Below, in pieces: positions 6,684-28,121 of a stretch of DNA of 30,736 bases. The DNA lies in IMG/VR virus record IMGVR_UViG_3300032087_004854, positions 1-30,736 of that record; one strand, given 5' to 3'. The notes under the pieces are model-generated. The model was not told where the DNA came from. It saw nothing but the letters and a program-made list of their open reading frames with translations, and made no database searches. The stretch comes from a virus. Numbering within the stretch: the stretch's first letter is position 1; each line of letters opens with the position of its first letter. A program made the translations under genes and the position numbers.

Positions 6684-7209
6684 AATGGTTTCCTTCAAAC
6701 GGAGCAAATAAATTAATCCACCATTTATTTACTGGTCCTTTTTTTGAATGTCCTAATAAATTTAGCATTCCATAAAACACATACGAATATATATATACTA
6801 ACAAAAAATGGTAAAAAAAGCCATAATATAATGCAATCATCCAAGTTACTACCATTGTCATTAAACCATACTTATGAAAAAACATTATTCTTGGATTTTG
6901 ATATAAATCTTTTACAAATTTTCGCGGGATATTTTTTATTCTCCAAGTTGAGAACAATATTTGATGCCATTTTTTATATAATGGACTATGAGGATCTTTA
7001 GGAGTATCTGAATATGCATGATGCATTCTATGAATTCCAGACCAACTTAATGCGGACTGACCTCCACATAATACACCGCAATAAAGCATAATACATTGTC
7101 CTATAGGAGATACTTTTATTTCACCATGTGAGAAACAACGATGATAGCCAAACGTAATACCTATAGAAGCTAAGATATAATATAAGATATAAGATTCAAT
7201 GAATACCAT
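6664..7209 (-). CDS. Acyl-lipid/acyl-CoA fatty acid desaturase (minimal)
   Basis: This membrane di-iron desaturase of the stearoyl-CoA (delta-9) type has 181 residues. All three histidine boxes are present: HRCFSH (23-28), HRMHH (60-64) and EGNHYDHHKR at the very C terminus, plus the extra GH of NLLGHSKKG. Hydrophobic segments lie near residues 3-20, 35-52 and around 110-150. It would insert a double bond into an acyl chain in the inner membrane. Typical bacterial forms exceed 250 residues; here the protein ends directly after the third box. The ATG at 7209 follows GGAGAA; an in-frame TTG at 7224 would place that Shine-Dalgarno sequence inside the gene. It is the first gene of the long operon. 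Confidence 0.85.
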   Translation of the reverse strand: MVFIESYILYYILASIGITFGYHRCFSHGEIKVSPIGQCIMLYCGVLCGGQSALSWSGIHRMHHAYSDTPKDPHSPLYKKWHQILFSTWRIKNIPRKFVKDLYQNPRIMFFHKYGLMTMVVTWMIALYYGFFYHFLLVYIYSYVFYGMLNLLGHSKKGPVNKWWINLFAPFEGNHYDHHKR

Positions 7210-7233
7210 AATACAATTCTCCAAAATAAAAAT

Positions 7234-10813: not shown

Positions 10814-10921
10814 AACATTCTCCTTCATTTGATATAACTATCCTACTATATTCTGAAGGCAATGTACATGCTTTTTTTAAAATTCTTTTTATTTAAAATC
10901 AATAACTTATGATTTTTTTTA
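10806..10921 (-). repeat. Promoter/leader cassette, copy A
   Basis: On the minus strand this segment shares three blocks with 25367-25465: an A-run plus ATAAGTTATTGATTTTAAAT, then CATGTACA, then GTAGGATAG..TATATCAAATG followed by AAGGAGAAT..TATG. The spacers between blocks differ. In each copy the first block abuts the end of the preceding gene and the last block is the ribosome binding site and start codon. Confidence 0.85.
10840..10868 (-). promoter_or_regulatory. Sigma70-like early promoter
   Basis: On the minus strand TGTACA (10868-10863) and TAGGAT (10845-10840) are separated by exactly 17 bases, with TATAGT overlapping the -10. It lies upstream of the operon 10813-9043. The same hexamers and spacing occur at 25424-25396. 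Confidence 0.65.
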
Positions 10922-11620
10922 TTTTTTAATGAATTTTCTTATGATTGGAAACACTTTTTCAATCTCTTTGGCACATTCAAGAGCAACTTCACGGTGTTCT
11001 TTTTGTGTACCATTTCCAGATCTTAGTTCGATGTAGTGCATCCATGAACGAATAGTACCATTCATATAAATTCGTGACATCATATTACCTTCAGGCAATA
11101 CAGCTCGAGCTTGTTCTTTAGCAATACCATTTTCAATTGCCCACTGATATACTTCTTTAGCTTGATTTATAACCCCGTGTTGTCTACGACCCCACTCAGT
11201 AATGAGATCTTGTTTTTTCAAATCTAATTGAATAGCAGGATCATTTTCGATTTCAATAGAATTTTGACGATTAGTATGGTCTTGAAGGCGAGCTTCACGT
11301 TTTACCATATCTAAATCTTTAGTTGGATCAGCATATCGTTGACTAAACTCTTGAAAGCTAAAACTTCTATGTCTTAAGATTTGTCTCGCGATGTCTCTTG
11401 TTGTTTCAATTTCGAGGCATGCTGAGACCATTTCGAATGGCGACCAGTGAGATTCTTTGGCAAGGTATGACAAGAGTCTCTCAGCTGTTTTCTTGTTGGA
11501 TTGGTTGGATGGATTGGAGACACGGGCGCAATACGCGATGAGATCTTGGGCATCATCAATTCCTATAAAAGCATCTTTTGCGGGTTGTGAATAACTAATT
11601 AGTCTTACATTAGGTTTCAA
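10919..11620 (-). CDS. thyX: Flavin-dependent thymidylate synthase ThyX
   Basis: The protein has 233 residues. The ThyX motif appears as RHRSFSFQEFSQRY (RHRxxSxxExSxRY, with Gln at the usual Asn), followed by ARAVLPEG and NGTIRSWMHYIELR. It makes dTMP from dUMP using FAD, NADPH and methylenetetrahydrofolate for phage DNA synthesis. The start is TTG at 11620, overlapping the helicase stop (TTGA), with GAGG ten bases upstream; no in-frame ATG is near. The phage also encodes a thymidylate-synthase-family gene at 22135-22830, which suggests that the other enzyme does a different reaction. Confidence 0.93.
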   Translation of the reverse strand: MKPNVRLISYSQPAKDAFIGIDDAQDLIAYCARVSNPSNQSNKKTAERLLSYLAKESHWSPFEMVSACLEIETTRDIARQILRHRSFSFQEFSQRYADPTKDLDMVKREARLQDHTNRQNSIEIENDPAIQLDLKKQDLITEWGRRQHGVINQAKEVYQWAIENGIAKEQARAVLPEGNMMSRIYMNGTIRSWMHYIELRSGNGTQKEHREVALECAKEIEKVFPIIRKFIKK

Positions 11621-13826: not shown

Positions 13827-14155
13827 TATACATAGGCCTTACCTAGTAAATTTTCTGCTGACCAACGGGCTTCCCAATCTCCAATCCATTCAATTTTCTT
13901 TTCTCTTGACCAACCAGCCAGATAATCATTGTCTCTGTCAAATAGTTTTAATACTTCTTCTTCTGACATTAACTGTGTATCAACAATGTTTTCATTTAAA
14001 CAAAGTTGGCTGAACTCTTCAGCTTCATTGCAAGTCACAGAATCTTTAATAAAAGTTTCTGGATCACAGTCTTTGATGTCACTCGTAGGAATGACATATC
14101 TTGTTCTAAACTGTAGAACCGCGGTTAACACTACATAATCACTCATTTCGCTCAT
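13826..14155 (-). CDS. Unrecognised acidic phage protein
   Basis: The protein has about 109 residues, is acidic, with a Trp-rich C terminus (WSREKKIEWIGDWEARW). Three in-frame ATGs compete (14170, 14155, 14146); 14155 is preferred because AGGA lies seven bases upstream. The start lies within the end of kdsB, so the two are translationally coupled. No family is recognised. Confidence 0.65.
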   Translation of the reverse strand: MSEMSDYVVLTAVLQFRTRYVIPTSDIKDCDPETFIKDSVTCNEAEEFSQLCLNENIVDTQLMSEEEVLKLFDRDNDYLAGWSREKKIEWIGDWEARWSAENLLGKAYV

Positions 14156-14813
14156 TCCATTTCCTCGCATCTTCAGGTGTATTAATTTCTATTCCATTCC
14201 ATTCTACCTCATTTACACCAATTTGTACACCGTTTTTTATCCATCTTAATTGTTCTAATTGTTCAATTTGTTCTTCAGGATATTTTACATATGACCAATA
14301 TTTAGCAAGTACTTCTCTTGTATATCCATACACACCTAAATGCCAATCACCATATCCTTTAAATCCTCTTCCAAACCATAAAGCTCTATTTTCAAATCGA
14401 ATTAATTTTACCGTATTAGGATCATTTTGTAATTCTTTAGGCATTTTAGTATAGACAGTAGATACATGATAAAACCCTAATAAATCTATACAACCTTCAA
14501 TACAATCAGATGTTACGTCAGGCATATCACCTTGAACATTAATAAACTGATCGTATCTTCTTAATAAAGGTATGGCTCCACTACATCTTTCAGTTCCATT
14601 TTTGTAATTAGCATTTTCAACTCTACAATTATTATCATTAAAACGTTCTGCTATACTCCAATCGTCTGTTAAAACATATGTATCAAGACCTGTTTTAGCA
14701 CATACTTCATATACACGCTTTATCATTGGAATACCACCCAAATTTACAAGTGGCTTTCCAGGAAATCGACTAGATTTAAATCTAGCTGGAATAAGAATAG
14801 CGGTCGATGTCAT
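14139..14813 (-). CDS. kdsB: CMP-KDO synthetase KdsB (3-deoxy-manno-octulosonate cytidylyltransferase)
   Basis: The protein has 224 residues. Family motifs run through the sequence: ILIPARFKSSRFPGKPL at the N terminus (CTP binding), VLTDDWSIAERF, NGTERC, FINVQGDMP (metal-binding Asp) and the C-terminal EQLEQLRWI...INTPEDA. It activates KDO to CMP-KDO, the donor for lipopolysaccharide inner core. Bacterial KdsB is about 245-255 residues, so this is slightly compact but complete in motifs. It overlaps kdsA by 32 bases. Related enzymes activate other keto-sugars, so the exact acid is not certain. Confidence 0.92.
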   Translation of the reverse strand: MTSTAILIPARFKSSRFPGKPLVNLGGIPMIKRVYEVCAKTGLDTYVLTDDWSIAERFNDNNCRVENANYKNGTERCSGAIPLLRRYDQFINVQGDMPDVTSDCIEGCIDLLGFYHVSTVYTKMPKELQNDPNTVKLIRFENRALWFGRGFKGYGDWHLGVYGYTREVLAKYWSYVKYPEEQIEQLEQLRWIKNGVQIGVNEVEWNGIEINTPEDARKWNERNE

Positions 14814-15540
14814 TTACTACACTTTCAAAATCTTCTAGTCTTAGCATATTTGGTCCATCACTTGGTGCATTATCTGGATCTGCATGTACTTCTAAAAAGA
14901 AGTTGCTAATACCCATAGCACTGGCAGCCCGAGCAAGACCTGGAACGTAATCACGATTACCGCCACTTGATTTCCCATTGCCTCCGGGTTTTTGGACAGA
15001 GTGCGTAACATCAAAAACAATAGGATTGTCATAGTTAGCAAGCATATACTGAAGGCCAGTATAGTCAACAACAAGATTATTATACCCAAAACTAGTACCT
15101 CTTTCTGTAATCCAAACTTCTTTCGCGTTTTTAGTTTTACTTAATATGCCAGCAACATCCCAAGGTGCTAGGAATTGTCCCTTTTTAATATTAACTATGC
15201 AATTTGATTTACAAGCTTCTACAATTAAATCAGTTTGTCTACATAAGAATGCTGGTATTTGTAAAACATCAACTACACCTTTACATCTACTTATTTGTCC
15301 TACAGTGTGAACATCGGTTAATATTTTAAAACCAGCGTCTCTAATTTTTTGAAAGTCAGGCAGTGTGTCATCAATACCTACACCACGCTTACCAGACATG
15401 CTGGTGCGATTTGCTTTGTCAAAGCTTGCTTTAAATATATATTCAATTTCATATTTATCACAAACATCTTTACAATGATTAGCAATTTCTAAAGATTGCT
15501 CAAGAGACTCATGTTGACACGGTCCTGCTATTATCCGCAC
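14782..15540 (-). CDS. kdsA: KDO-8-phosphate synthase KdsA
   Basis: The protein has 252 residues. Clear KdsA motifs: GPC near the start, FKASFDKANRTS, LTDVH, LQIPAFLCRQTDL, NIKKGQFL, TERGTSFGYNNLVVD, DVTHSVQ and the EVH...SDGP end. It condenses phosphoenolpyruvate with arabinose 5-phosphate to KDO 8-phosphate. The start is GTG at 15540, supported by GAGGAAG seven bases upstream; no ATG is available. It lies inside the end of the upstream gene. With kdsB it gives two of the four KDO-CMP steps (the isomerase and phosphatase are not seen here). Confidence 0.95.
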   Translation of the reverse strand: MRIIAGPCQHESLEQSLEIANHCKDVCDKYEIEYIFKASFDKANRTSMSGKRGVGIDDTLPDFQKIRDAGFKILTDVHTVGQISRCKGVVDVLQIPAFLCRQTDLIVEACKSNCIVNIKKGQFLAPWDVAGILSKTKNAKEVWITERGTSFGYNNLVVDYTGLQYMLANYDNPIVFDVTHSVQKPGGNGKSSGGNRDYVPGLARAASAMGISNFFLEVHADPDNAPSDGPNMLRLEDFESVVNDIDRYSYSS

Positions 15541-15844
15541 GTTTTGCTTCCTCTCGTTCTATGGCAGCTTCAACCGCGTTAGTCATACATTCATATAAAA
15601 TTTCACCTACAACTTCAGCGCAATCATCTTCTGTAAGACCATCAATTGGAGAAGACAAAATTTCAAAATTAAAATTTAATTCGTCTTTTTCAGCCACTTC
15701 GGCAATAGTACCAAACCTAAAAACAGTTTCAGTATATTCACCTTCTAATATTCTAACATTCCACCAATTTTCATCATCTGATGGAATTAGTTCAAAGTCT
15801 TCATTCTGTTTCAAATTCAAGTTCCACTTCTGTTTGATAACCAA
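15509..15844 (-). CDS. Unrecognised acidic protein downstream of uvsX
   Basis: The protein has up to 111 residues and is strongly acidic, containing IPSDDENWWNVRILEGEYTE-like sequence and a helical C terminus rich in Glu/Ala. There is no in-frame ATG near the start: TTG codons at 15844, 15820 and 15814 are the candidates, and 15814/15820 have GTGGA upstream. The gene overlaps the end of uvsX and the start of kdsA. Function unknown. Confidence 0.6.
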   Translation of the reverse strand: MVIKQKWNLNLKQNEDFELIPSDDENWWNVRILEGEYTETVFRFGTIAEVAEKDELNFNFEILSSPIDGLTEDDCAEVVGEILYECMTNAVEAAIEREEAKRADNSRTVST

Positions 15845-16841
15845 TGGCGTATTGCCGTTTTAAAAATTCTTTGAAATCAGTATTAGTAAAGATTGGATCC
15901 CAAAATTCTTTCTCTAAAGTTTGATCATACCTAACCTTTGCGCCAATTTCACCTGTTTCCTGATTAACTTCAGAATACCACCCGTTGGAAGGTTTAGTAA
16001 CGTAGCCACCAGCGAGAGCCACATCAAGAAGGCCGCTGTAATTGCGAACACCACCGTCCCAGGAAACAGTAATAGGAATCTTAGACTTTTCTTTAACATA
16101 CCTGCTCTTTTCAACGTTAATTACAAAATGATACCCTTGAATCTCTGTACCTTTTTTATCTTGTTGTCTACCAAGAATCCAAATATTATCAGCACTATAA
16201 TATATGCCTGTACCTCCAGATACTACAGCTTTTGGAAATAATCCAATTTCCATATAAGTGTGATTTACTGCAATAAGAGGAATATCTTTCATATTTAGGT
16301 ATGGAGTACACATTCTAAACAGACCTTTAAGAGCTTTTGCTCTTGACATGTCTGCTACAGATTTTTCATTAATAGCATCTTCTAATTCTTTTTTCGATGC
16401 TAAATTACCAACTGAATCAATCATAATAATAACTTTATCATTACGATCAAGACCTTCAAGTTGAGAAATAACATCAAACTTAAGTTCTTCTACGTTTGTA
16501 ATTGGTGTATGAAGAACTCGAGTAGTATCGATATCATATTGTTGAAAATAAGATTGAGGAGAACCAAACTCTGAGTCATAAAATAATAGAACAGCATCTT
16601 CGTATTTTTTCAAATAAGCAGAAGCCATAATAAGACCAAAAGAAGTTTTAAAATGTTTTGATGGACCTGCAAGAACTGTAAGACCTGGAGCAATTCCTCC
16701 ATCTACAGAACCAGATAATGCCACATTAATCATTGGTACATCTGTTGGTACCATATCTTTTTCAGTAAAAAACTTACTTTCACTTAGAACATTAGTAAAT
16801 TCTATTTTACTGTTCTTTTTCAATTTATCCATTATTGACAT
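15801..16841 (-). CDS. uvsX: UvsX recombinase (RecA-like)
   Basis: This 346-residue protein has a RecA core. Walker A is AGPSKHFKTS (about 58-67), closely like the GPSKSFKS form in T4 UvsX rather than the GPESSGKT of bacterial RecA. Walker B is in DKVIIMIDSVGNL, and VNHTYMEIG marks the loop region. It forms filaments on single-stranded DNA and drives strand exchange in recombination-dependent replication and repair. ATG at 16841 is separated by one base from the upstream stop. The acidic C terminus (ELEFETE) is typical of RecA-type proteins. Confidence 0.95.
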   Translation of the reverse strand: MSIMDKLKKNSKIEFTNVLSESKFFTEKDMVPTDVPMINVALSGSVDGGIAPGLTVLAGPSKHFKTSFGLIMASAYLKKYEDAVLLFYDSEFGSPQSYFQQYDIDTTRVLHTPITNVEELKFDVISQLEGLDRNDKVIIMIDSVGNLASKKELEDAINEKSVADMSRAKALKGLFRMCTPYLNMKDIPLIAVNHTYMEIGLFPKAVVSGGTGIYYSADNIWILGRQQDKKGTEIQGYHFVINVEKSRYVKEKSKIPITVSWDGGVRNYSGLLDVALAGGYVTKPSNGWYSEVNQETGEIGAKVRYDQTLEKEFWDPIFTNTDFKEFLKRQYAIGYQTEVELEFETE

Positions 16842-16842
16842 A

Positions 16843-17598
16843 TTATACTGGAATCCCTTCGAATTGATTATTCATAATAAATTGCTTTACGTCTACTTTT
16901 GGTTTCCAACCAAATTCTTCTTTCATATGAGTATTATCAGCAGTATTGTTTGGAGCTTCACAAGTAGCACCTTCTTTTATAGGTACGTTATATCCAGCCA
17001 ATTCTGCCAAATCAGATACAGTATTACCCACTCCAGTACCAATATCGTAAGCGCGCTGTTGTGGTTCATTGTCAGAATTGATAATAGCCAATATCGCTGA
17101 GACAACATCACTAACGTGAATAAAGTCACGCACGTGATTAGTACTATACTCAAGATTGCTTGAAAGAAGCCTACCCATGAACATAGTATCGCGAGCACCA
17201 TCACCATACACAGTTGTAAAGCGAAGCGCTGTTTGTCTAGCTCTTGCAGTTTCTTCGTTAACTTTCTTTGTTGTTCCATAAGGAGATAACCACCATCTGT
17301 GAATACAGGATGAGGAAGCATACAATAATGGTACATTATTCTTCCTACAAATTTGTTGTATTCGAGTTGTATTTTCTACATTGTTTTTCCAATATTCTTG
17401 TGGATAGTCAATGCTACGTCTTACGTCGGCTTGTGCTGCTAAATGAATTACCCAACTTACACCAGAAGGTAATTCAAAGTGATCGATATGTCTTTCAATC
17501 TTTCGATCCCACTGATCTACAACATGTCCAGCTGCAATCAGTTCCTTTACTAAATGGGATCCAATGAACCCATGTGATCCAGTTACTACAATTTTCAT
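16843..17598 (-). CDS. NAD-dependent sugar epimerase/dehydratase
   Basis: This extended short-chain dehydrogenase has 251 residues. The N terminus KIVVTGSHGFIGSHLVKEL holds the GxxGxxG NAD site, and SSSCIHRWWLSPYGTTK supplies the Ser and the YxxxK catalytic pair. HLAAQADV and RDFIHVSDVV are typical of UDP-glucose 4-epimerase/RmlB relatives. It is 50-80 residues shorter than usual because the middle substrate region is reduced. AGAGGA precedes the ATG. It is the first gene after the promoter at 17664-17636. The substrate is likely a nucleotide sugar. Confidence 0.88.
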   Translation of the reverse strand: MKIVVTGSHGFIGSHLVKELIAAGHVVDQWDRKIERHIDHFELPSGVSWVIHLAAQADVRRSIDYPQEYWKNNVENTTRIQQICRKNNVPLLYASSSCIHRWWLSPYGTTKKVNEETARARQTALRFTTVYGDGARDTMFMGRLLSSNLEYSTNHVRDFIHVSDVVSAILAIINSDNEPQQRAYDIGTGVGNTVSDLAELAGYNVPIKEGATCEAPNNTADNTHMKEEFGWKPKVDVKQFIMNNQFEGIPV

Positions 17599-17635: not shown

Positions 17636-17664
17636 ATTATACCATAAATTCATCTAATAGTACA
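17636..17664 (-). promoter_or_regulatory. Sigma70-like early promoter inside the end of the upstream gene
   Basis: On the minus strand TGTACT (17664-17659), 17 bases, TATAAT (17641-17636). The -10 overlaps the stop codon of the gene ending at 17637. It would drive the epimerase-uvsX-kdsA-kdsB-gp41-thyX unit. Confidence 0.65.
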
Positions 17665-18674
17665 CTCTTTTCTGGTGGTCGACCTTGTCTTTGTGCCCAT
17701 CCTGATACCCAACCAGAATTATTTTGAATATTAGCAGAGATATGGTCAAACGTATCGTCATTTCGTGGTACATAATTTTGACCAAATCGAACAAAGTCAC
17801 ATAAAACATCTTCATTATCTCGTGGTGCCCCACCCATACGTTCACATAATATATCCATAAATTTATCAGTACTATATCCGCTTGACATCATTTTCATACA
17901 CCTAACGGCATTATTACCAAAATATCCATGAGACTGATCATCTACAAGATCTTTATGATAATCACCCAAATCATATGAAAAAGCAGCATAAACAAAGTTA
18001 AATTTTCTGTGTCCCTGTTCAGCATTATATGCATTTAAAAAATCTGTAACTTGTTTATGTGTTTTCTTTTGGCCACTATGTAACCAATCAATGAGTCTAT
18101 CTAAAAGATGTGGTAATTCTTCAGTAAGATAATCAATAACACTTACACCTTTACGAGGAGCTGGAGGTTGGTTTCCAATTGAAGTGAAAGTTGGAATCTT
18201 ATTTGCTTTACGGTATTTAAGATCAGCACTCATTTCTTCAATTGATTCTAAAACTCCCCATTTATGAACACAATTATTTCTATAACCATGATCTCTTGTA
18301 AATGATGCTCCAGATCCTGTGGCTCTATGACACATATAAGCAAATAACCACGTTTTAAGATCCCATTTTTCAGTGATATAGCTATCAACCAAATCTACGT
18401 GTTTTTGACCTAAAGATTTATTCTTTAATTGATGATGTCTTTTTGGTGTTTCACTACGATACCTTAAATCTTGTAAAACATTTGAAAAACCAGCAGCATC
18501 TCTTGTATAACAATCGTAAATATCAATCTCTTGCATAAGATCGTCATTTATTTCTTTATTTGCTATTTCACCTGTATAAGGAATTTTTCCCCAGTTACAA
18601 TTAATTTGTAACCACTTGGCTCTTGGATAATAATAATCTACTAAAATATCAATTGCTTTTTCATTAAGCCACAT
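17637..18674 (-). CDS. Unrecognised large soluble protein of the PLP/SGNH gene set
   Basis: This 345-residue, helix-rich protein has Cys, His and aromatic residues in conserved-looking islands: CHRATGSGASFTRDHGYRN in the first half, PTFTSIGNQPPAPRKG in the middle and DFVRFGQNYVPRND near the end. I do not recognise the family. The Gly-rich/His islands and the neighbours (PLP enzyme, SGNH-like, thymidylate-synthase-like) raise the possibility of an amino acid:DNA transferase or related base-modification enzyme, but I cannot show this. It overlaps the PLP gene by 11 bases. Its final codons contain the next promoter. Confidence 0.7.
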   Translation of the reverse strand: MWLNEKAIDILVDYYYPRAKWLQINCNWGKIPYTGEIANKEINDDLMQEIDIYDCYTRDAAGFSNVLQDLRYRSETPKRHHQLKNKSLGQKHVDLVDSYITEKWDLKTWLFAYMCHRATGSGASFTRDHGYRNNCVHKWGVLESIEEMSADLKYRKANKIPTFTSIGNQPPAPRKGVSVIDYLTEELPHLLDRLIDWLHSGQKKTHKQVTDFLNAYNAEQGHRKFNFVYAAFSYDLGDYHKDLVDDQSHGYFGNNAVRCMKMMSSGYSTDKFMDILCERMGGAPRDNEDVLCDFVRFGQNYVPRNDDTFDHISANIQNNSGWVSGWAQRQGRPPEKSVLLDEFMV

Positions 18675-19548
18675 TCTTCGCCCACTCCCTATATGAATCT
18701 ATAGTATCTGCTAATTCTAAATTTTGTAAAATTGGTTCTTTTCCTACATTCCAAAAGAGAATGTCTTTATCAGTATTTTTAGGAATATACTTCCATACTT
18801 TGCCATCGTAAGTATCTATAGTCGGAAAAGGTGGTAGGTTTTCTTTTTTCTCTGCTTGTAAAAATGCAAGAGGTTCAGATATAGGTTTGGCAATTCCAAG
18901 CTCTCCAGCTTTCATATTACGAGATACACAAACTGAATGAAACTTTGCATTTGGCCATGCAATTTGAAGGGCACGAGTAAGTACACCTGTTGATGTAGCA
19001 GTATAAACTTCTTCTGGTTCTCGTATCTTCGAAGCTGTCTTTACAATACCAGCTGTGACCATTTCATGTTTCAATCCAAGTGGTACAAAGAAAGCATTTT
19101 TTCTTTCAGAAGCCCATTTCTTTGCAATGGCATTTAGATTTGGCATAGCAGCTATTCTATGAAATTGGAATTTAGCTCCTCGTTCAATACAACAGGCTTG
19201 ATGATGACTAATCTTTTTTGATGAAGGCATAAAAAGCATGACATCTTTACCATGTCGTTTTGCTACGTCAAGTATACTAACACCAGCAAGACCAGTCCGA
19301 GGTTGAACATAGACGATAGTATCGATTCGAGAATCGAGGCTACTAATAAGACAATCACCGCCACGAACTTTAGAACCCACAAGATAGTCGTCACGAACAA
19401 CTCGTACACCATCGTGCATATTAACCACTGGTTCACCATAAGGATCTTCCCAATCTTTTGCTAAATCTAAATAATATTCTTTTGGATCTCCATAGAATGG
19501 GTTTATATCTTTATTAATTCCATCTATAACATGATTTTTAAACGCCAA
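18664..19548 (-). CDS. Fold-type-II PLP-dependent enzyme
   Basis: The protein has 294 residues. VGSKVRGGD places a lysine (Lys60) where the ACC deaminase/cysteine synthase group has its PLP lysine. VQPRTGLAGVSILDVAKRHG is the typical helix that follows, and YTATSTGVLTRAL is the Gly/Ser/Thr phosphate-binding loop. Such enzymes carry out beta-elimination, replacement, deamination or decarboxylation-type chemistry on amino acids. The TTG at 19548 is preferred: GGGGAG lies nine bases upstream and it overlaps the preceding stop by 11 bases. An ATG at 19632 would add residues that do not fit the fold. Substrate unknown; a modified nucleotide bearing an amino acid is one possibility. Confidence 0.75.
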   Translation of the reverse strand: MAFKNHVIDGINKDINPFYGDPKEYYLDLAKDWEDPYGEPVVNMHDGVRVVRDDYLVGSKVRGGDCLISSLDSRIDTIVYVQPRTGLAGVSILDVAKRHGKDVMLFMPSSKKISHHQACCIERGAKFQFHRIAAMPNLNAIAKKWASERKNAFFVPLGLKHEMVTAGIVKTASKIREPEEVYTATSTGVLTRALQIAWPNAKFHSVCVSRNMKAGELGIAKPISEPLAFLQAEKKENLPPFPTIDTYDGKVWKYIPKNTDKDILFWNVGKEPILQNLELADTIDSYREWAKNVA

Positions 19549-20494
19549 GAGGTGATACTCCCCAATCGTTTCTTCTATGAAAAGGAGGAGCAATATGTAC
19601 ACTTCCACCATGTTCCATATAAGTATTCGCATATTTTTCTGGATCCATAGTATACCAATGTTCAGGTGGCATTACTACTTTACCTTTTGATTCATTATGT
19701 AGTATTTCAATAAAACGATTTGTTAAATCATATCGTTCTTTCCATGATCCAAAGAATGGTGTCTTTTTAAAATAACCAGTTTTAGGTAATTTACGACCTT
19801 CATATTCTACTGGAACAGGTGCCGTAAACCAAACATCATCTCCAAGTTCATTACCTTGACGAACATATTCTTTTAAAGTTTCTTTTAAATCGAAATCAGA
19901 ATGACGCAATATATGGTGCCTAATATCAATAGAACCGAGGCATATAGTAAGTCTATGTACGGATTCTTTGAAGTCTTCTCTGAGTCCTCTTCTAAGAGAT
20001 CCATAAAGAGTTTTACCATCAGTACGGTACACACGGTCACCAGCAGCGCTAAAAGCAATTGTATGAGAATCTCCATAGGTAATTCCATCTGATTTAATAT
20101 TTCTTTGTGTTAAAAAAGGAATATATTTTATTCTTTCAGAAACCATATCACACCACTTTTCAGTGATGCCTTCATATGTAGTATTATTACCTATACGAAC
20201 TTTTAACATAGCTCCATAGTCTGGCATATCGCAATCAAGTGACGTGATATTGTTACACGCTAACAACGTGTTTATTTTATCAAATATTTCTTTTGTAGCT
20301 CCACCAAATAAATTAAGTGTCCCACCAAAATTCACGCCATGATCAACATAAACTTGATCGGCTTTTAGAATATTAGCAGAACACTTATGATCTATTGCGG
20401 CATTTAGTTGGTTTTGCCAAATTTGTGTCCATCCTAAAACATGTGACTTTTCAGTTTTAGGAATATTAGTGATAGGATTCGTTATGACTTTCAT
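19538..20494 (-). CDS. SGNH/GDSL hydrolase-like protein
   Basis: This 318-residue protein has the SGNH blocks: TYGDSHTIAF (block I, nucleophile Ser), ICLGSIDIRHH (block III, G-x-I-D in place of GxND) and a late GGSVHIAPPF carrying the expected catalytic His. The N-terminal 120 residues form an extra domain with VDHGVNFGGTLNLFGG. SGNH enzymes are esterases or acyl transferases on lipids, sugars or amino acids. The gene overlaps the next one by 11 bases and the previous one by 29, so it should act with the PLP enzyme. The actual substrate is unknown. Confidence 0.6.
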   Translation of the reverse strand: MKVITNPITNIPKTEKSHVLGWTQIWQNQLNAAIDHKCSANILKADQVYVDHGVNFGGTLNLFGGATKEIFDKINTLLACNNITSLDCDMPDYGAMLKVRIGNNTTYEGITEKWCDMVSERIKYIPFLTQRNIKSDGITYGDSHTIAFSAAGDRVYRTDGKTLYGSLRRGLREDFKESVHRLTICLGSIDIRHHILRHSDFDLKETLKEYVRQGNELGDDVWFTAPVPVEYEGRKLPKTGYFKKTPFFGSWKERYDLTNRFIEILHNESKGKVVMPPEHWYTMDPEKYANTYMEHGGSVHIAPPFHRRNDWGVSPLGV

Positions 20495-21455
20495 ATACTG
20501 ACCTCAAGCTGAAATCCTTTGGAAAGATCCATTCATATGGAATTCTTTTCGTAGGTGATTTTACTCCATGATTAATAGCAATATGCTTATAAAAGAAACA
20601 TGTCTTATCTTCTATGTTCAAGAGCTTTTGCTCTTTAATTGGATTCATAGGATGATTAGACAATATCTCCATTTGTTCTAGCCATATTCTACCATATTCG
20701 TTAGTAGAAGTAAACAGTCCATTTTCATCTATTTCGTATTTTACTTTACTCATTAAATTTTTACCACCAAATATTTGGTGCATACCATCAAAGTGACCAG
20801 TACCTCCAAATAAAACAGATTCTGGATCACATACATTAGGATATGCCATAGCAATATAACGAGCAAAGTTTTTACATGGATACATAGGATTTCTAAATCC
20901 TTGTTCCTTCGCAAAATACTGTGCCATTTCTTTTGCAAGTTCCATCATAGTCCAAGGTCTATTTTTAGAACTTAAAATATGACCCATATCTTCAGCAGCT
21001 TGTTTTGGTCCAGTTAATAACCATTCACGAACGTTAGTGCCTTTAGGATAATAGATTTGAAATAAATCGTTTCGAGCATGTCTATGATGCTCAAACCGTT
21101 CTTTTAGTCCTTGTACACCATGATTCATTAGAGTTGTAAGTGTTAACCAATGTTCATTAGTAAAACTAAAAACAAGAGTATACCACATACGATGAAAATC
21201 ATCGGTTACATCTGACATAATATCACAGAATGGATGTTCATGCCAGTGTAACCGATGTGAAAAGATTTGATAATCTTGTTTGAGTAGTGTATCTTGTCTT
21301 TGATCGAACTTACGACAAAACTCAAAAAACTTTTCGAATCTTTGTTCTTGAGTCCAATCTTTCATCCAACTATCAACAGGTTTTCCTTTTTTATTAAGGT
21401 CTACTACTGTTGTATTTTCATATAAGATATCATATTCATTAGGCGATAAGTTCAT
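20466..21455 (-). CDS. Unrecognised large helical protein of the PLP/SGNH gene set
   Basis: This 329-residue protein is mainly alpha-helical, rich in His, Trp and Phe in its first half, with RNPMYPCKNFARYIAM and then VLFGGTGHFDGMHQIFGG in the second. The GGTGHFDGMHQ stretch with its His and Asp could be a ligand or catalytic site. I do not recognise the family; a link to phage DNA base-modification transferases is speculative. The ATG at 21455 is used; a TTG lies two codons earlier. Confidence 0.65.
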   Translation of the reverse strand: MNLSPNEYDILYENTTVVDLNKKGKPVDSWMKDWTQEQRFEKFFEFCRKFDQRQDTLLKQDYQIFSHRLHWHEHPFCDIMSDVTDDFHRMWYTLVFSFTNEHWLTLTTLMNHGVQGLKERFEHHRHARNDLFQIYYPKGTNVREWLLTGPKQAAEDMGHILSSKNRPWTMMELAKEMAQYFAKEQGFRNPMYPCKNFARYIAMAYPNVCDPESVLFGGTGHFDGMHQIFGGKNLMSKVKYEIDENGLFTSTNEYGRIWLEQMEILSNHPMNPIKEQKLLNIEDKTCFFYKHIAINHGVKSPTKRIPYEWIFPKDFSLRSVYESHNESYH

Positions 21456-21472
21456 AATCAAAGAGTTCTTTT

Positions 21473-21724
21473 TTAGTAACCACCATTATAAGTTTGTTCA
21501 GCTTGCAGATGAGCCATATCAACTTCAAGTTTAGTAATTCGTTCTTTTAATTCAATTATTTCTTGTTTCTTTTCAAGTTCTTCTTGTGCTTTTAATTTAG
21601 CATCTTCTTCACGACTTCGTCTCATCATATAATCGTAGTATGGTTCACGATAATACGTAGTATCCATGTATGTTTCATCATCTTCGTTATTCGTGACTTT
21701 TCTCAGTTTTTGCAATAAGTTCAT
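21473..21724 (-). CDS. Small coiled-coil protein
   Basis: This 83-residue protein has an aromatic, Asp-rich N-terminal third (YMDTTYYREPYYDYMMRR) followed by a long charged helix (residues 38-75) with heptad spacing of Leu/Ile/Val (LEKKQEIIELKERITKLEV), a likely coiled coil. It ends TYNGGY. It overlaps the dCMP deaminase gene by 38 bases. Function unknown; such proteins often act as adaptors or structural parts. Confidence 0.65.
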   Translation of the reverse strand: MNLLQKLRKVTNNEDDETYMDTTYYREPYYDYMMRRSREEDAKLKAQEELEKKQEIIELKERITKLEVDMAHLQAEQTYNGGY

Positions 21725-22145
21725 ATTTAACTCCTGCTTCTTGAAATAATTGTTTTGTTAACGACCATGAGTCGCGCCACCGCTCATCTACATCAGCTCG
21801 CATCACGACTCTTTTTACTCCAACTTGAATTACACCTAAGGCACAATTCGAACAAGTTGGTAAACCAGTTACATATATGGTTGATCCATCTAATGAAACA
21901 CCATTGAAACCAGCATTATAGATGCAGTTCATTTCAGCATGAACCACCAATTTGTATTTTTTTTCTCTATCTGTATACCTCTCATTTGAATCTATAATAT
22001 TACGCGGAAATCCATTATAACCTTGAGCTAATACTTGGCCTTTATTACCAATAGCAACAGCTCCAATTTGCCGCGATGGATCTTTAGACCATGTAGCAAT
22101 ATGCTCAGCAAGATCTAAATATCGATAATCCCATTTACTTAACAA
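21687..22145 (-). CDS. dCMP deaminase
   Basis: The zinc cytidine/deoxycytidylate deaminase motifs are present: HAEMN (zinc His and catalytic Glu) and LPTCSNCA (two zinc Cys). The N-terminal KWDYRYLDLAEHIATWSKDP and GYNGFPR are typical of dCMP deaminases. It converts dCMP to dUMP, feeding thymidylate synthesis. The start is uncertain: TTG at 22145 gives about 152 residues, aligns with usual N termini, follows AAGG and overlaps the upstream stop by 11 bases; ATGs at 22163 and 22169 lie deeper in the upstream gene without a clear Shine-Dalgarno sequence. Confidence 0.9.
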   Translation of the reverse strand: MLSKWDYRYLDLAEHIATWSKDPSRQIGAVAIGNKGQVLAQGYNGFPRNIIDSNERYTDREKKYKLVVHAEMNCIYNAGFNGVSLDGSTIYVTGLPTCSNCALGVIQVGVKRVVMRADVDERWRDSWSLTKQLFQEAGVKYELIAKTEKSHE

Positions 22146-22830
22146 GGTGAAAATGCCTTTCATAAACATGTAGATTTTGAACTTGCCAAACAATATGACC
22201 AAGCTCTATTTTATCTCCGCCATCATACATGTTTAATCCATTATAATCCATGATCAAACGATTCATCACTGCAAGTTGCCAAGCATAATCATTTTTATAA
22301 CCATACACGACATCATTACTCCGCATTTGAACTACAGAGTGTAAAAGATTATCTCGTATGTAATAAGAAACGGCATTGGTACAGATGAAATCGTTTTTAC
22401 CATTTTCGTTATATTCCAACCAAATAGATGGACGATTATAGATCATAGTAGCTCTACGACCGTCAGGATTTAACATTAATTCATCGAGTACATTTCCGTA
22501 CTGGTTATAATATATATCATCAAAAATCAGTTTTCCGTAATTAGAATTGATTTCTCCATGAGTATTTGCCGCATATTTCCAAGCAGCAGGAGCATCAGCG
22601 CCAGACTCTTTGTTAATATCATAGATATTTGTTGATTGTGAATCATACCACGCAAGTTCTTTTGCGATATATTCATCGTTAGGCGTACCAAAAATAGATG
22701 GTTCATCTGCTATAAACTGAGCACCAATTAATTCAATTGTTTTTTGACCAGTTTTATCAGTTGTGAATGCTTTATCGCTTAATTCGCCAATAAAATATTC
22801 ACGGATATCATGTACACTATTTATTTTCAT
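22135..22830 (-). CDS. Thymidylate synthase-family pyrimidine C5-modifying enzyme (probable dCMP/dUMP hydroxymethylase)
   Basis: The protein has 231 residues. Family motifs: NYGKLIF, NPDGRRATMIYNRP, a Cys in FICTNAVSYY (the nucleophile position), and MRSNDVVYGYKNDYAWQ, matching QRSxDxxxGxPxNxxxY. At the position of the pyrimidine-reading Asn of thymidylate synthase this protein appears to have Asp, as in T4 dCMP hydroxymethylase. The phage already has ThyX, so a hydroxymethylase role in making modified DNA precursors is the better reading. It is the first gene behind a promoter, with only six bases between the -10 and its ATG. dUMP as substrate cannot be excluded. Confidence 0.75.
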   Translation of the reverse strand: MKINSVHDIREYFIGELSDKAFTTDKTGQKTIELIGAQFIADEPSIFGTPNDEYIAKELAWYDSQSTNIYDINKESGADAPAAWKYAANTHGEINSNYGKLIFDDIYYNQYGNVLDELMLNPDGRRATMIYNRPSIWLEYNENGKNDFICTNAVSYYIRDNLLHSVVQMRSNDVVYGYKNDYAWQLAVMNRLIMDYNGLNMYDGGDKIELGHIVWQVQNLHVYERHFHLVK

Positions 22831-22836
22831 GGTTAT

Positions 22837-22865
22837 ATTCTATCACATATCTTTCTTAAAGTAAA
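22837..22865 (-). promoter_or_regulatory. Sigma70-like promoter, possibly leaderless
   Basis: On the minus strand TTTACT (22865-22860), 17 bases, TAGAAT (22842-22837). The ATG of the next gene begins at 22830, six bases after the -10, so the predicted start site coincides with the start codon. Confidence 0.5.
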
Positions 22866-23664
22866 CAATATTTTGTTCTTTTTCTCGTTCATCTCGTTCA
22901 TATTGTGCTCTATACTTATTGTTTGCCTTAATAACTTCTTCAATGATTGAAAGAACTCCAAGACCTGCGGTTTCAACAATTGCTTTTGTATCTTTTGGAA
23001 AACACGCTCCACCAAAACCTCTTTTATTGTCAAATCCTGGAACTTTAGTATGACCATGACCAATTCGCTTATCAGATCCAACTGCATTGAATACTACAGA
23101 AGGATTGGCATCGTATTGTGCACAAAGATCGTACATTTGATTGAAAAATGTTACTTTAGTTGCTAAGAAAGAATTAATAGTATATTTAACTAAAGAAGCT
23201 TCAATCATAGTCATAGTAAAAAACGATGCAGGATTACATAAACTATAACCTACATATAAATCTATAACATCATCTACAGCTTCAACTGGTCCACCTAAAA
23301 TATGGAATTGTGGATTAATAAATTGTTCTGCTGCTGATTTTTCAGTAAGAAATTCTGGATTATACACCACATCTGGATGCATCATCTCTTCGATAATATG
23401 TGGTGGAACAGTAGATTTTAGAATAATTTTTGCTGGAAAATCATTTGAGAGTAATTCTTCCATGACTTCTCGAACGATACTAAAATCATCCATTGGTGTT
23501 GGAACACAAACGAAAATATAATCTGTATCATCGTCAATGTCCATAATTTCAGTGCCAAGTTTTGGATCGATATGTTGTTGAATCACATGAGGATGATTAA
23601 ATCCATACGCAACTGCACCACCAACAAAACCTAATCCAACGATAGCTATTTTTTGTTCGTGCAT
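22843..23664 (-). CDS. UDP-glucose/GDP-mannose dehydrogenase, truncated
   Basis: The protein has 273 residues. The N terminus KIAIVGLGFVGGAVAYGF is the NAD-binding fold; CVPTPMDD and STVPP, then YNPEFLTE follow the family order, and GFGGACFPKDT holds the catalytic Cys (about residue 221). It oxidises a nucleotide sugar to the uronate using two NAD. Usual enzymes have 390-450 residues with a C-terminal UDP-binding domain; here the protein stops about 50 residues after the Cys, so that domain is missing. ATG 23664 is preferred over a distant in-frame start at 23748 inside the upstream gene. Confidence 0.85.
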   Translation of the reverse strand: MHEQKIAIVGLGFVGGAVAYGFNHPHVIQQHIDPKLGTEIMDIDDDTDYIFVCVPTPMDDFSIVREVMEELLSNDFPAKIILKSTVPPHIIEEMMHPDVVYNPEFLTEKSAAEQFINPQFHILGGPVEAVDDVIDLYVGYSLCNPASFFTMTMIEASLVKYTINSFLATKVTFFNQMYDLCAQYDANPSVVFNAVGSDKRIGHGHTKVPGFDNKRGFGGACFPKDTKAIVETAGLGVLSIIEEVIKANNKYRAQYERDEREKEQNIVYFKKDM

Positions 23665-24080
23665 TCCGAAACTCTCATCCTTAAATCGCTTGTCGAAAAG
23701 CGATGATCTCTCTTGTTGAAGTAAAGTTGTATTCCCCTTTTCCTGCATTCGTCTTTTCCTGTGAATTCTTTATCCCGATATTCTTCACCGAGTATTCGAA
23801 TATCAATAGGATACATGTTGAGAATGTCGAGTAAATCATTTTCAGTCGTATATACGACTACTTCATCGACATATTTAATTGCTGCTAATTGTGCCTGCCT
23901 CTCAACAACAGTTTGTACAGGTGTATTTTTTAATCTACGATCAATTGAAGGATCCACCTGTAATCCAACAATAAGATAATCGCAAACCGATTTTGCTTCA
24001 CGTAACATTGCGACGTGGCCAGCATGTAATAAATCAAATGTACTACAAGTAAAACCTATAGTGACTTTAGAGTATTCCAT
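23646..24080 (-). CDS. Cytidylyltransferase (glycerol-3-phosphate/sugar-phosphate type)
   Basis: The protein has 144 residues. GFTCSTFDLLHAGHVAML contains the HxGH nucleotide-binding motif, and RFSTSDLRMRV is the family (I)STSxxR motif. This is the nucleotidyltransferase group that includes TagD (CDP-glycerol synthesis) and the HldE cytidylyl/adenylyl domain (ADP-heptose). ATG 24080 directly precedes the core and follows GGAAA. It sits between a phosphomannomutase and a nucleotide-sugar dehydrogenase, so it probably serves glycan precursor synthesis. The substrate cannot be fixed from the sequence. Confidence 0.85.
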   Translation of the reverse strand: MEYSKVTIGFTCSTFDLLHAGHVAMLREAKSVCDYLIVGLQVDPSIDRRLKNTPVQTVVERQAQLAAIKYVDEVVVYTTENDLLDILNMYPIDIRILGEEYRDKEFTGKDECRKRGIQLYFNKRDHRFSTSDLRMRVSECTNKK

Positions 24081-24787
24081 GTATGTTTCCAATCCATAAC
24101 TGTAAATGATTTGCCGCATGGCATTTCATTCACTGCATCATAAATTTCAGCGTCATTACCACCAAATTGTGTTTTATCGCCAAAGAAATATATATTATCG
24201 TAATGTTCGAAGTCTTTTAGGATCTGAGCTTTGTTACAACCTAATGGTGTAATATCAATTCCAGTTTCACCAGCCACTTTAAATTCAATATCTTTAAAAT
24301 GTTCTCTAAGCCTATGCGCAATCTTATCTCTATCTTGATTTAATCTATCATATTCAACATACATCTTACGTTCACCAAGAGTACAATTACGACCGACTAT
24401 ACTAAAATTAAGCAAACCTACTCGTTGTTCAATATGATTACCAGTTCGAAGTGGAAATTTATTTTCTCTTAATTCAAATTCCAAAATACGAATAAGGTGA
24501 TCAGATGCTTTCCAATCACTATCACTTATACAGATATTTTTTCTAAAAACTTGAGCACCAGAACATTGGTAAACACGTTTACACAATTCGTAAATATATT
24601 CACCAACTTGTTCAACGGTTTTTGGTTTATCACTGCCAGTTACAAGATAGACTTCGTTCTTTTCGGCGAACTTAGAAAACCATACAGCGAATTTTTTATC
24701 CATACGTCCACGGCTTGGAGTTAACGTGCCGTCTACGTCAAAGATATATTTACTCTTCTGCTTGCGATTTACGTGTGGTATTGACAT
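24056..24787 (-). CDS. Eukaryotic-type phosphomannomutase (HAD superfamily)
   Basis: The protein has 243 residues. FDVDGTLTPSRG supplies the HAD nucleophile Asp17 and Asp19, VGLLNFSIVGRNC matches the MxNxSPxGRNC signature of the PMM1/PMM2 family, and FFGDKTQFGGNDAEIYDA is its metal-binding C-terminal motif. These enzymes interconvert mannose 6-phosphate and mannose 1-phosphate, leading to GDP-mannose. The length agrees with the family (about 245 residues). Bacteria usually use an unrelated phosphomannomutase, so this form is notable. It overlaps the upstream gene by 38 bases. Confidence 0.88.
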   Translation of the reverse strand: MSIPHVNRKQKSKYIFDVDGTLTPSRGRMDKKFAVWFSKFAEKNEVYLVTGSDKPKTVEQVGEYIYELCKRVYQCSGAQVFRKNICISDSDWKASDHLIRILEFELRENKFPLRTGNHIEQRVGLLNFSIVGRNCTLGERKMYVEYDRLNQDRDKIAHRLREHFKDIEFKVAGETGIDITPLGCNKAQILKDFEHYDNIYFFGDKTQFGGNDAEIYDAVNEMPCGKSFTVMDWKHTWNTLKSL

Positions 24788-26660: not shown

Positions 26661-27579
26661 TTTTATACACATACTCCAAAGCTCTATCTGCTTCTTTTTC
26701 CATTGGTCGATTTTCATACCAATTACCAGTTTCGATATCAAGTTCTCTACACATTGCAGTGATTTCTTGACATGTAATTGGATAATTATTCTTCACAGCA
26801 TTACCAGCAATGGCAACCATAATTTGGTACATCTTATGATACCAACCAGTATTATTAATTAAACGATATTCGGATTCCAAATTTTTAGGAAAGAATGGAC
26901 AGTCACGATATGATGACCAATTAAAATTAGTATTATCAAGTTTGGCTTTACGATGCTCTACAATTTGTGCTTGAATTTCTTCTGGTAATCTATCAAAGAA
27001 ATTATTGCCGCTTTTAATTGGAGCTGGATGTTTAGCCATTAAAACATCAGGATCTATAGCCATACCAGTATGATCAAAAATAAAGTTGAAAGCAGACTTG
27101 TACGTGCCAGGGATATAATACATTCGTGAATAATCTTTAGTCTGTTTATCTCCAATCGAACCGAGTTCGGTATTGAGGGCGTACCAGAAAGCTCGGATGT
27201 TATCTGCTTTAACTCTTTTCGTAAGTGGGAACACAAGCCTAAACTTAGGATAATCTTCTCGACTGCTAGCAGTACTATAGCAAATAAAGCTGAACTTATT
27301 ATATAAGGCAACCAACTCATTTTGTAGATCTCCTTCAAACTTGTGGTCATCAACATCAACAGCACACCAACCACCCCAATCAACTACATTGGCATTAGCT
27401 CGAGTTGTATTGGGGTGGTAAGTGGCAGGAGATATTAGTTGTGCTTCTTCTTTAGATTCACGAGGCACTTTAGCGAGATCGTATAACAAATGTTTGAACT
27501 GGTCAAAATTGTCCAAGTCCATACGACGATGTGTCTTATTGTCAAATACGCTTTTAAACAGCGTTAGAGAGATCTCCAT
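26653..27579 (-). CDS. PrimPol/archaeo-eukaryotic primase-like protein
   Basis: The protein has 308 residues. CAVDVDDHKF gives the DxD motif I. YSTASSREDYPKFRLVFPL matches the conserved strand region of phage and plasmid AEP primases (xPRFRLVxPL), and KDYSRMYYIPGTYK matches the D-x-SRxxYxPGT motif near the third catalytic Asp. A helical domain follows (residues 200-308), like a PriCT-type primase C-terminal helical region. It would make primers at the fork. ATG 27579 follows GAGG seven bases upstream. No T4 gp61-type primase is visible in this window, so this may be its replacement. Confidence 0.6.
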   Translation of the reverse strand: MEISLTLFKSVFDNKTHRRMDLDNFDQFKHLLYDLAKVPRESKEEAQLISPATYHPNTTRANANVVDWGGWCAVDVDDHKFEGDLQNELVALYNKFSFICYSTASSREDYPKFRLVFPLTKRVKADNIRAFWYALNTELGSIGDKQTKDYSRMYYIPGTYKSAFNFIFDHTGMAIDPDVLMAKHPAPIKSGNNFFDRLPEEIQAQIVEHRKAKLDNTNFNWSSYRDCPFFPKNLESEYRLINNTGWYHKMYQIMVAIAGNAVKNNYPITCQEITAMCRELDIETGNWYENRPMEKEADRALEYVYKNV

Positions 27580-27967
27580 GATTATCCTCGTGATTAGGAC
27601 CTTTCCACCCACCGGGTTTCAATAGATCAGGTAAACCAAATCGATTTGGCCGACCAGGTTTTATACCAGCCTTTTTATCCATATTGGCACGATAAATTTC
27701 ATCCCACGCTTTATGAGCATCTACTCCAAAAACGTCTAATGTACCAATAGCGAAAACACATAGATCAATTAAACCATCTACGATTTCTTCTTCATCGCCA
27801 TTATTAATAGCTCCAAGAGTTTCGTGTAACTCTTCATTAATCATTAACATACGAAACATAAGATACTTACGCATAAGATCTTTGTTGTCTTTGTTATTTT
27901 CAAACCAATCATGTACACCATATTTCTGGTGCATTTCATTGATATCTTTTACCCAATTTTCACTCAT
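27554..27967 (-). CDS. MazG-like nucleotide pyrophosphohydrolase
   Basis: The protein has 137 residues. The all-alpha NTP-PPase signature is present: NEELHETLGAI (ExxE) followed by EEEIVDGLIDLCVFAIG (ExxD), which bind magnesium and the triphosphate. It hydrolyses (d)NTPs, or possibly an alarmone or modified nucleotide, to the monophosphate. The C-terminal GRPNRFGLPDLLKPGGW is an extension. ATG 27967 comes one base after the stop of the 50-residue gene. In a phage with modified bases it might remove unmodified dCTP or dUTP; that is inference. Confidence 0.75.
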   Translation of the reverse strand: MSENWVKDINEMHQKYGVHDWFENNKDNKDLMRKYLMFRMLMINEELHETLGAINNGDEEEIVDGLIDLCVFAIGTLDVFGVDAHKAWDEIYRANMDKKAGIKPGRPNRFGLPDLLKPGGWKGPNHEDNHGDLSNAV

Positions 27968-27968
27968 A

Positions 27969-28121
27969 TTAAAATACCTGTACTGCGAACGAGATGATCG
28001 AGAAAAAGAACAAAATTGCGATGTAGATAGTAAGACCAAGAATGACTAATTTACCATTGTCTAAATCTGCGGCTGTACCTTCACCGTATTTGTCTTTAAA
28101 TGCTTTCAATGTTTTTTTCAT
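27969..28121 (-). CDS. 50-residue membrane protein
   Basis: The frame ATG 28121 to TAA 27969 encodes 50 residues: a basic then acidic soluble start (MKKTLKAFKDKYGEG) and one strong hydrophobic helix (about residues 28-48, with ILGLTIYIAILFFFSIIS). The promoter -10 ends six bases before the ATG, and the next gene starts one base after the stop. Both support a real gene. AGGA lies five bases upstream of the ATG in any longer transcript. Function unknown; it is probably an inner-membrane peptide expressed early. Confidence 0.7.
   Translation of the reverse strand: MKKTLKAFKDKYGEGTAADLDNGKLVILGLTIYIAILFFFSIISFAVQVF

Follow-up and report, generated by a model that had tools for sequence, protein, structure and literature searches.

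Why would a phage that already had a flavin-dependent thymidylate synthase also carry a gene of the thymidylate synthase family? This question was raised by a viral fragment of 30,736 nt (IMGVR_UViG_3300032087_004854), which we analyzed over its whole length and refer to as the window. As stated in the original prediction, ThyX was present in it together with a thymidylate synthase homologue (Table 1), and the homologue was proposed to have Asp instead of Asn at the base-reading position and to place 5-hydroxymethylcytosine (hmC) or a derivative in the phage DNA. The hmC reading was supported by the closest match of the protein to T4 gp42 and by its Asp181, and the words "or a derivative" gained strength from a different gene cassette that occupied the glycosyltransferase slot. 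We consider that the window phage very probably made its own modified cytosine and that the cassette behind gp42 probably decorated it differently from a sugar coating.

The open reading frame (231 aa, ATG start) matched PF00303 (Thymidylat_synt, E 3.4e-12) and phrog_160 (E 2.8e-44), and was 50.4% identical to T4 gp42 across 224 columns. In a phmmer search of PDB sequences, the top three matches were all T4 dCMP hydroxymethylase (1b49, E 4.9e-69; 6l18; 6a9a), and the CMP hydroxymethylase MilA and thymidylate synthases trailed at 2e-6 to 1e-4 (thymidylate synthase, 3.6e-5). Relatives were found by tblastn in 968 of 50,697 phage records, every one below 60% identity. In the alignment with E. coli ThyA, Cys150, Thr151 and Asp181 of the window protein corresponded to Cys146, His147 and Asn177, respectively, and the dUMP hydroxymethylase SPO1 gp29 had Asn at the last of these positions. 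The phmmer alignment placed the Asp of YGYKNDYAWQ on Asp in 1b49 and on Asn in 6l18 and 6a9a, two T4 dCMP hydroxymethylase sequences that differ from 1b49 at this site; the expected Asp was confirmed. Both Asp181 and Cys150 were unchanged in 27/27 aligned homologues, which were a selection out of 103 gp42 ORFs. Thus, in its closest match, its Asp at the Asn177 site and its catalytic Cys the protein agreed with the T4 gp42 family, and the Asn that characterizes ThyA was replaced.

According to the available part of the MetaGPA report (PMC8670742), positions 177 and 147 best separated the thymidylate synthase homologues on modified-cytosine contigs from the rest, and thymidylate synthase, dCMP-deaminase, MafB19-like and PRA-PH domains were found together on modified contigs. 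Pfam detected all four domain types in the window. Since the residues and the co-occurring domains given there were all present, we regard gp42, judged by its sequence, as an ordinary enzyme of an already known kind. Its best predicted product was 5-hydroxymethyl-dCMP because the alignment gave Asp rather than Asn and the enzyme resembled T4 gp42; a T4-like dCMP 5-hydroxymethylase whose product would end as hmC in the phage DNA is highly probable.

Asp alone was no proof of hydroxymethylation, since RB69p048 also had Asp at the base-reading position in our alignment, and the thymidylate synthase homologue of RB69 and phage NP was reported, in the accessible part of PMC13390438, to make 5-hydroxy-dCMP. 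An enzyme of this type would imply a substituted 5-hydroxycytosine as the base. However, the window protein was only 24% identical to RB69p048, in contrast to its much closer likeness to T4 gp42, it did not have the altered active-site loop of RB69p048, and it retained Glu58, Asp173 (RSxD, with RSND in the window) and Gly177, all three of which were lost in RB69p048. Since these T4-like residues were kept, synthesis of 5-hydroxy-dCMP appeared very improbable and was set aside on sequence grounds. The Pfam name, and ncbifam thymidylate synthase models that matched far under their cut-offs, would fit a second thymidylate synthase or else a dCMP methylase. Both were hardly credible, and the second thymidylate synthase was also set aside, given Asp at 177 and Thr at 147 in the ThyA alignment, T4 dCMP hydroxymethylase as the nearest solved relative, and dTMP already available from ThyX.

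Table 1. Genes of the window discussed in the text, with the searches and residues used to name them.
Feature	Position	Strand	Evidence and remarks
ThyX, flavin-dependent thymidylate synthase, dTMP source	10919..11620	-	PF02511 (Thy1), E 2.1e-44
UvsX recombinase, bounding the variable slot on one side	15801..16841	-	phrog_97
Nucleotide-sugar epimerase	16843..17598	-	phrog_540, PF01370
Cassette protein U17637, 345 aa	17637..18674	-	no Pfam family; predicted HhH DNA-glycosylase-like fold
PLP enzyme of the cassette, resembling fold type II	18664..19632	-	phrog_7093, E 8.9e-36; Lys88; the actual start is probably internal to the ORF
Cassette protein S19538, 318 aa	19538..20494	-	phrog_13881; beta-glucosyltransferase-related N-terminal domain, SGNH-like C-terminal part
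Cassette protein U20466, 331 aa	20466..21461	-	no Pfam family; predicted HhH DNA-glycosylase-like fold
dCMP deaminase	21687..22202	-	PF00383, E 3.8e-17; phrog_174
dCMP hydroxymethylase, T4 gp42 orthologue	22135..22830	-	Pfam, PHROG, PDB-sequence search, alignments; Cys150 (nucleophile position), Thr151, Asp181 (base-reading position)
UDP-glucose dehydrogenase-like protein (UGD)	22843..23748	-	PF00984, PF03721, phrog_9148
HldE/RfaE-like nucleotidyltransferase	23646..24119	-	PF01467; TIGR02199 under cut-off
Phosphomannomutase-like HAD protein (PMM)	24056..24787	-	PF03332, E 1.2e-31
MazG-like/PRA-PH pyrophosphohydrolase	27554..28039	-	PF01503, E 8.1e-10; candidate dCTP-pool enzyme

Similar to T4 gp42 (1b49) in its active-site residues, the window gene also resembled it in its place between DNA polymerase and UvsX. 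The neighbors were different: in T4, b-gt followed 42 and separated it from uvsX, whereas in the window the dCMP deaminase was directly next, its ORF overlapping gp42 by 68 nt (the true start may be internal), and U20466, S19538, the PLP enzyme and U17637 were located between it and UvsX. The deaminase adjoined gp42 in 79/80 gp42 loci. The original prediction had seen neither a kinase nor a glucosyltransferase; accordingly, the alpha-glucosyltransferase family PF11440 was not found in the window, and a general Pfam scan of 20 window proteins revealed no kinase. Since the record was a 30.7-kb fragment, these absences carried little weight.

The contents of the slot were compared across 160 loci, namely the best 80 of 137 relatives of U20466 and the best 80 of 596 relatives of gp42. 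In 60 of the 160 loci, gp42 was followed by UvsX within 12 kb, and each of these 60 slots was occupied by one module, never more, out of four alternatives: the cassette (36), an alpha-glucosyltransferase (alpha-GT; 16), a TET-associated glycosyltransferase (TAGT; 4), or a phrog_14998 gene with UDP-galactopyranose mutase (4), although a single shared slot may inflate the apparent exclusivity. The modules were named from PF11440 (E 7.7e-30 in L002), PF20691 (E 1.9e-20 in L051) and PF03275 (E 1.4e-54 in L079) for alpha-GT, TAGT and the mutase, respectively. In a separate tblastn search, two modules occurred together in 0/160 loci. The 80 loci fetched with gp42 contained alpha-GT in 32 cases, the cassette in 25, S19538 alone in 3, the phrog_14998 gene in 8, TAGT in 5 and no visible module in 7; no alpha-GT, TAGT or phrog_14998 module was found by tblastn in the 80 loci fetched with U20466.

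All 36 cassette islands had S19538, 31 had the PLP enzyme and 18 had U20466; from these island counts, S19538 and U17637 looked like the cassette core. UGD was present in 17 and the epimerase in 12 of the same islands, and the epimerase was not considered cassette-specific since it was common to cassette and glucosyltransferase islands. Among the 80 U20466-fetched loci, U17637 was found in 75, S19538 in 68, the PLP enzyme in 66, and gp42 and the deaminase in 23 and 19, respectively; among the 80 gp42-fetched loci, the deaminase was found in 79, S19538 in 28, U17637 in 25, the PLP enzyme in 16 and U20466 in 1. Since many loci were short, these gene counts were lower bounds.

The modules also appeared to have been exchanged repeatedly. 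On a gp42 tree of 83 rows (75 labelled; a quick method with some long branches), the module label needed 17 changes compared to a mean of 29.9 when shuffled, and well-supported branches forced at least 5 changes for the cassette and at least 6 for alpha-GT. The contigs that provided this evidence were metagenomic and related to each other, and loci belonging to the same virus group were not independent. In one pair, a cassette locus (L021) and an alpha-GT locus (L029) had gp42 proteins identical at 223/229 residues. The gp42 closest to that of the window (L002, 201/231, with UvsX at 94%) was followed by alpha-GT. Moreover, PF11440 was found in 0/8 cassette records, including two of 152 and 135 kb, versus 2/2 alpha-GT records.

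Several other features of these loci were observed. A C5 cytosine methylase-like protein (PF00145; e.g., L002:13477-14667) was present in 20/20 alpha-GT or TAGT islands, in 4/36 cassette islands and in 0/4 islands with the phrog_14998 gene. In one alpha-GT island (L010:10530-12716), radical SAM and SPASM genes, apparently two copies of each, were located beside the deaminase. Most neighbor genes of L003 were 91-99% identical to those of the window, but its gp42 matched at only 185/231 residues; the reverse was true of L002, whose gp42 was closer and whose neighbors were less similar, so gp42 itself seemed to have been exchanged. In the same slot of L079 (4223-5239), a phrog_14998 protein was encoded beside UDP-galactopyranose mutase and can be considered a candidate for a new hmC glycosyltransferase, perhaps one using galactofuranose.

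The profile of the S19538 family matched the beta-glucosyltransferase (beta-GT) family in hhalign (prob 79.7, E 1.5e-5, score 46.6), whereas the score did not exceed 23.5 over 100 column shuffles and was 15.8 when reversed, and the other cassette families gave no hhalign match to beta-GT. The match was located in the N-terminal part (prob 85.9) and was carried by divergent members (93.9), with the window-like members alone reaching only 5.5; through these members, the N-terminal domain of the family was recognized as related to that of beta-GT. Additionally, phrog_7922 (beta-glucosyltransferase) matched in L084 with E 0.0037, and Pfam T4-Gluco-transf matched 1/21 members with E 0.054. In Pfam, NCBIfam and PDB-sequence searches, the S19538 family gave only weak or chance matches. 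GDSH was invariant in the family, which also had a GNID/GSID-RHH motif and a His toward the end (GDSH 141-144, GSIDIRHH 187-194 and His300 in the window protein), resembling SGNH enzymes; the Pfam GDSL model PF00657 stayed under its cut-off (E 0.0082) in 2/21 members.

These data bear on the possibility that S19538 was a divergent beta-glucosyltransferase that used an NDP-sugar from the UGD, epimerase and HldE neighbors, with the HhH proteins helping. Its N-terminal domain and the adjoining sugar genes, with the island counts of UGD and the epimerase given above, would fit such a role. However, the C-terminal part of S19538 did not resemble the C-terminal nucleotide-sugar domain of beta-GT (prob 0.1) and had the GDSH and GNID motifs instead, Asp89, aligned to the presumably catalytic Asp100 of T4 beta-GT, was not invariant in the family, and the PLP enzyme would have no obvious place. 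Thus, we consider glycosylation by S19538 unlikely, though not negligible, and prefer a decoration of hmC other than glucosylation.

The PLP enzyme was fold type II-like according to its G-x-K lysine, Lys88, which was invariant in 15/15 aligned proteins, and its phrog_7093 match (Table 1). Pfam PALP (E 0.0033, under cut-off) and cysteine synthase (E 0.0016) indicated a weak likeness. Relatives of this enzyme formed part of proteins annotated as DNA modification methylase or methyltransferase in Erythrobacter phage R6L (gp1, L163) and Microcystis phage Mae-JY30; in R6L, the PLP domain appeared by eye to be inserted inside the methylase.

U17637 and U20466 had no relatives in Pfam, NCBIfam or PDB-sequence searches and 0 tblastn matches among the 50,697 phage records, and a profile comparison matched their two families to one another (prob 87.7, E 3.4e-6, 92 columns). 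Their predicted models (pLDDT 85.6 and pTM 0.86 for U17637; 85.0 and 0.84 for U20466) resembled AGOG (7ou3, archaeal 8-oxoguanine DNA glycosylase) in VIA, with Z 9.0 and rmsd 4.7 for U17637 and Z 7.3 and rmsd 5.3 for U20466, each over 206 residues, where a Z below 8, or below 13 for helical proteins, may reflect common architecture. Glycosylases headed both VIA lists: the first 11 rows for U17637 were all DNA glycosylases, the fourth row for U20466 was the queuine salvage enzyme 7u5a (Z 6.7), whose fold we take to be glycosylase-like, and the next unrelated rows had Z 3.4 and 3.9. The Foldseek matches of the two models were not significant (E 0.39 and 3.3); therefore, the HhH DNA-glycosylase-like fold was likely but not certain.

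A glycosylase-like helical domain was reportedly placed in the thymidine hypermodification pathway by Iyer in 2013. An assignment of U17637 and U20466 to the 5hmdU DNA kinase family (HMUDK_hel, PF18723) was not supported by hhalign, a comparison of low power, and PF18723 was found in 0/16 records searched, with ViI, M6 and phiW-14 as positive controls. For ADDT (PF18724), Pfam gave no match in either protein, and hhalign against three control sequences was negative, also with low power. This profile test was weak since the two control families, of three sequences each, failed to match each other.

We propose the following scheme. The gp42 enzyme would produce hydroxymethyl-dCMP, which would end as hmC in the phage DNA, and dTMP would come from ThyX, which could obtain dUMP through the adjoining dCMP deaminase. 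After replication, hmC would be decorated by the products of the genes at 17637-21461 and not by a glucosyltransferase. Based on its exchange in the slot with known hmC glycosyltransferases and on remote homology, it is likely that the cassette decorates hmC in DNA, and the whole explanation, a dCMP hydroxymethylase plus a cassette acting on its base, can be considered probable. The individual roles are doubtful: in the most likely arrangement, the beta-glucosyltransferase-like N-terminal domain would allow S19538 to recognize hmC-DNA, flipping or processing of the base might be the task of the HhH-fold proteins, and the attached group might be transferred or altered by the SGNH-like part together with the PLP enzyme.

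Alternatively, the cassette could be cargo in a permissive slot and unrelated to DNA modification; the DNA would then have hmC that is either plain or coupled to a sugar by a gene located beyond the fragment. The window was indeed only a fragment, the sugar-nucleotide genes (UGD, HldE, PMM and epimerase) were part of the same run of genes and were found in alpha-GT islands as well, and the cassette occurred in non-T4 loci where gp42 was not found. However, mere cargo would not agree with the exclusive occupancy in 60/60 slots, the repeated exchange on the gp42 tree, the absence of alpha-GT from the longer cassette records, or the beta-GT-like domain of S19538 and the predicted glycosylase-like folds. 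We regard cargo as rather improbable and retain the decoration of hmC by the cassette as the preferred reading.

The coupling of the cassette to the modified base was followed in 33 of 80 cassette records. A thymidylate synthase-family gene was found in 13 of them, and it was Asp-type in 12, including a distant one in G003 (256 kb); G005 (183 kb) had only an Asn-type gene. The other 20 records had no gene of this family, even at lengths of 150 kb (G021), 80 kb (G025) and 165 kb (G026). Therefore, the cassette may also serve another base or a base made otherwise, or these records may be incomplete. A TET/C5-methylase route to hmC was considered for 10 cassette records without an Asp-type gene: TET_JBP was found in none, which carried no information since no control matched either, and a C5 methylase was present in 1/10 and a dCMP deaminase in 4/10. 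By eye, apparent ribonucleotide reductase genes came no more than a few genes after the same cassette in two non-T4-like contigs (L086 and L131).

In comparison to the known hmC-modifying enzymes of T4-like phages (T4 beta-gt and alpha-gt, TAGT), the cassette occupied the same slot behind gp42 and, through S19538, shared the N-terminal domain of beta-GT. On the other hand, neither alpha-GT nor TAGT nor the sugar-binding domain of beta-GT was part of it, and HhH, SGNH-like and PLP proteins were present instead. Thymidine hypermodification in ViI, M6 and phiW-14 (PF18723, PF18724) was comparable in that a hydroxymethyl base undergoes a further change within the DNA, but that base was hmU and the base of the window was predicted to be hmC. 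The carbamoylation of hmC, as described in the available part of PMC8670742, was similar to the window in its Asp-type thymidylate synthase homologue, deaminase, PRA-PH domain and proposed non-sugar decoration, but the Pfam scan of 20 window proteins revealed no carbamoyltransferase. Other T4-like phages were also reported to replace the glucosyl pathway, with arabinosyl-cytosine in RB69 and NP (PMC13390438) and a pentose in Thanatos (PMC12838424); as far as the accessible parts of these reports show, RB69 and NP started from a distant thymidylate synthase homologue making 5-hydroxy-dCMP, and the genes of all three differed from the cassette. In the literature covered, largely outside subscription journals, we found no earlier description of such a cassette and no known hmC decoration using HhH, SGNH or PLP folds.

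The new part of the system was the cassette, a candidate route of cytosine coating that occurred frequently among marine viral contigs and could be exchanged for glucosyltransferases. The restriction, CRISPR and glycosylase defences that a phage is able to evade depend on coatings of this type, and their enzymes are useful as DNA tools. The cassette also bears on an old question about the Aeromonas phages 44RR, 31 and 25, all of them culturable. According to the available part of Petrov et al. 2010 (PMC2993671), these phages had gene 42 but no glucosyltransferase, and other hmC decoration in such phages was left open, RB69 and JS98 being named. A tblastn search of the 50,697 phage records found relatives of S19538 in 43, of which 38 were Aeromonas, 3 Tenacibaculum and 2 Stenotrophomonas, and phages 44RR, 31 and 25 each had this one cassette protein. 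In 44RR2.8t, it formed the N-terminal part of a 795-aa protein, and in phage 25 it was a separate protein of 348 aa; gp42 of 44RR had Asp at the base-reading position. The C-terminus of 44RR ORF233c was also considered as PF18723, and it stayed under the cut-off (E 0.0036; 4.1e-4) and did not match the U17637 profile.

Taken to its full extent, our proposal is a new hmC hypermodification in marine T4-like phages that is not glucosylation. The DNA-side domain of beta-GT would be joined to a domain of the SGNH type; together with HhH proteins that flip the base and with a PLP enzyme, it would add a non-sugar group, perhaps derived from an amino acid, and remodel it. The system would be freely exchanged with alpha-glucosyltransferase. 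If so, the decoration that is missing in the Aeromonas phages would be explained by a reduced (phage 25) or fused (44RR, 31) form of the cassette. We put this extended version forward only tentatively.

Other genes of the window, all on the minus strand, were observed outside the slot. At 14139-15540, a KdsB-like cytidylyltransferase (PF02348) adjoined a DAHP/KDO-8-phosphate synthase-like protein (PF00793), a pair whose sequences suggest synthesis of CMP-KDO or an LPS sugar by the phage and which was considered as a possible origin of a sugar for the DNA. Judging the translations by eye, 348-7224 encoded a run of proteins resembling 2-oxoglutarate/iron oxygenases, with a SET-domain-like protein at 2897-3370 and a fatty-acid desaturase-like protein at 6664-7224.
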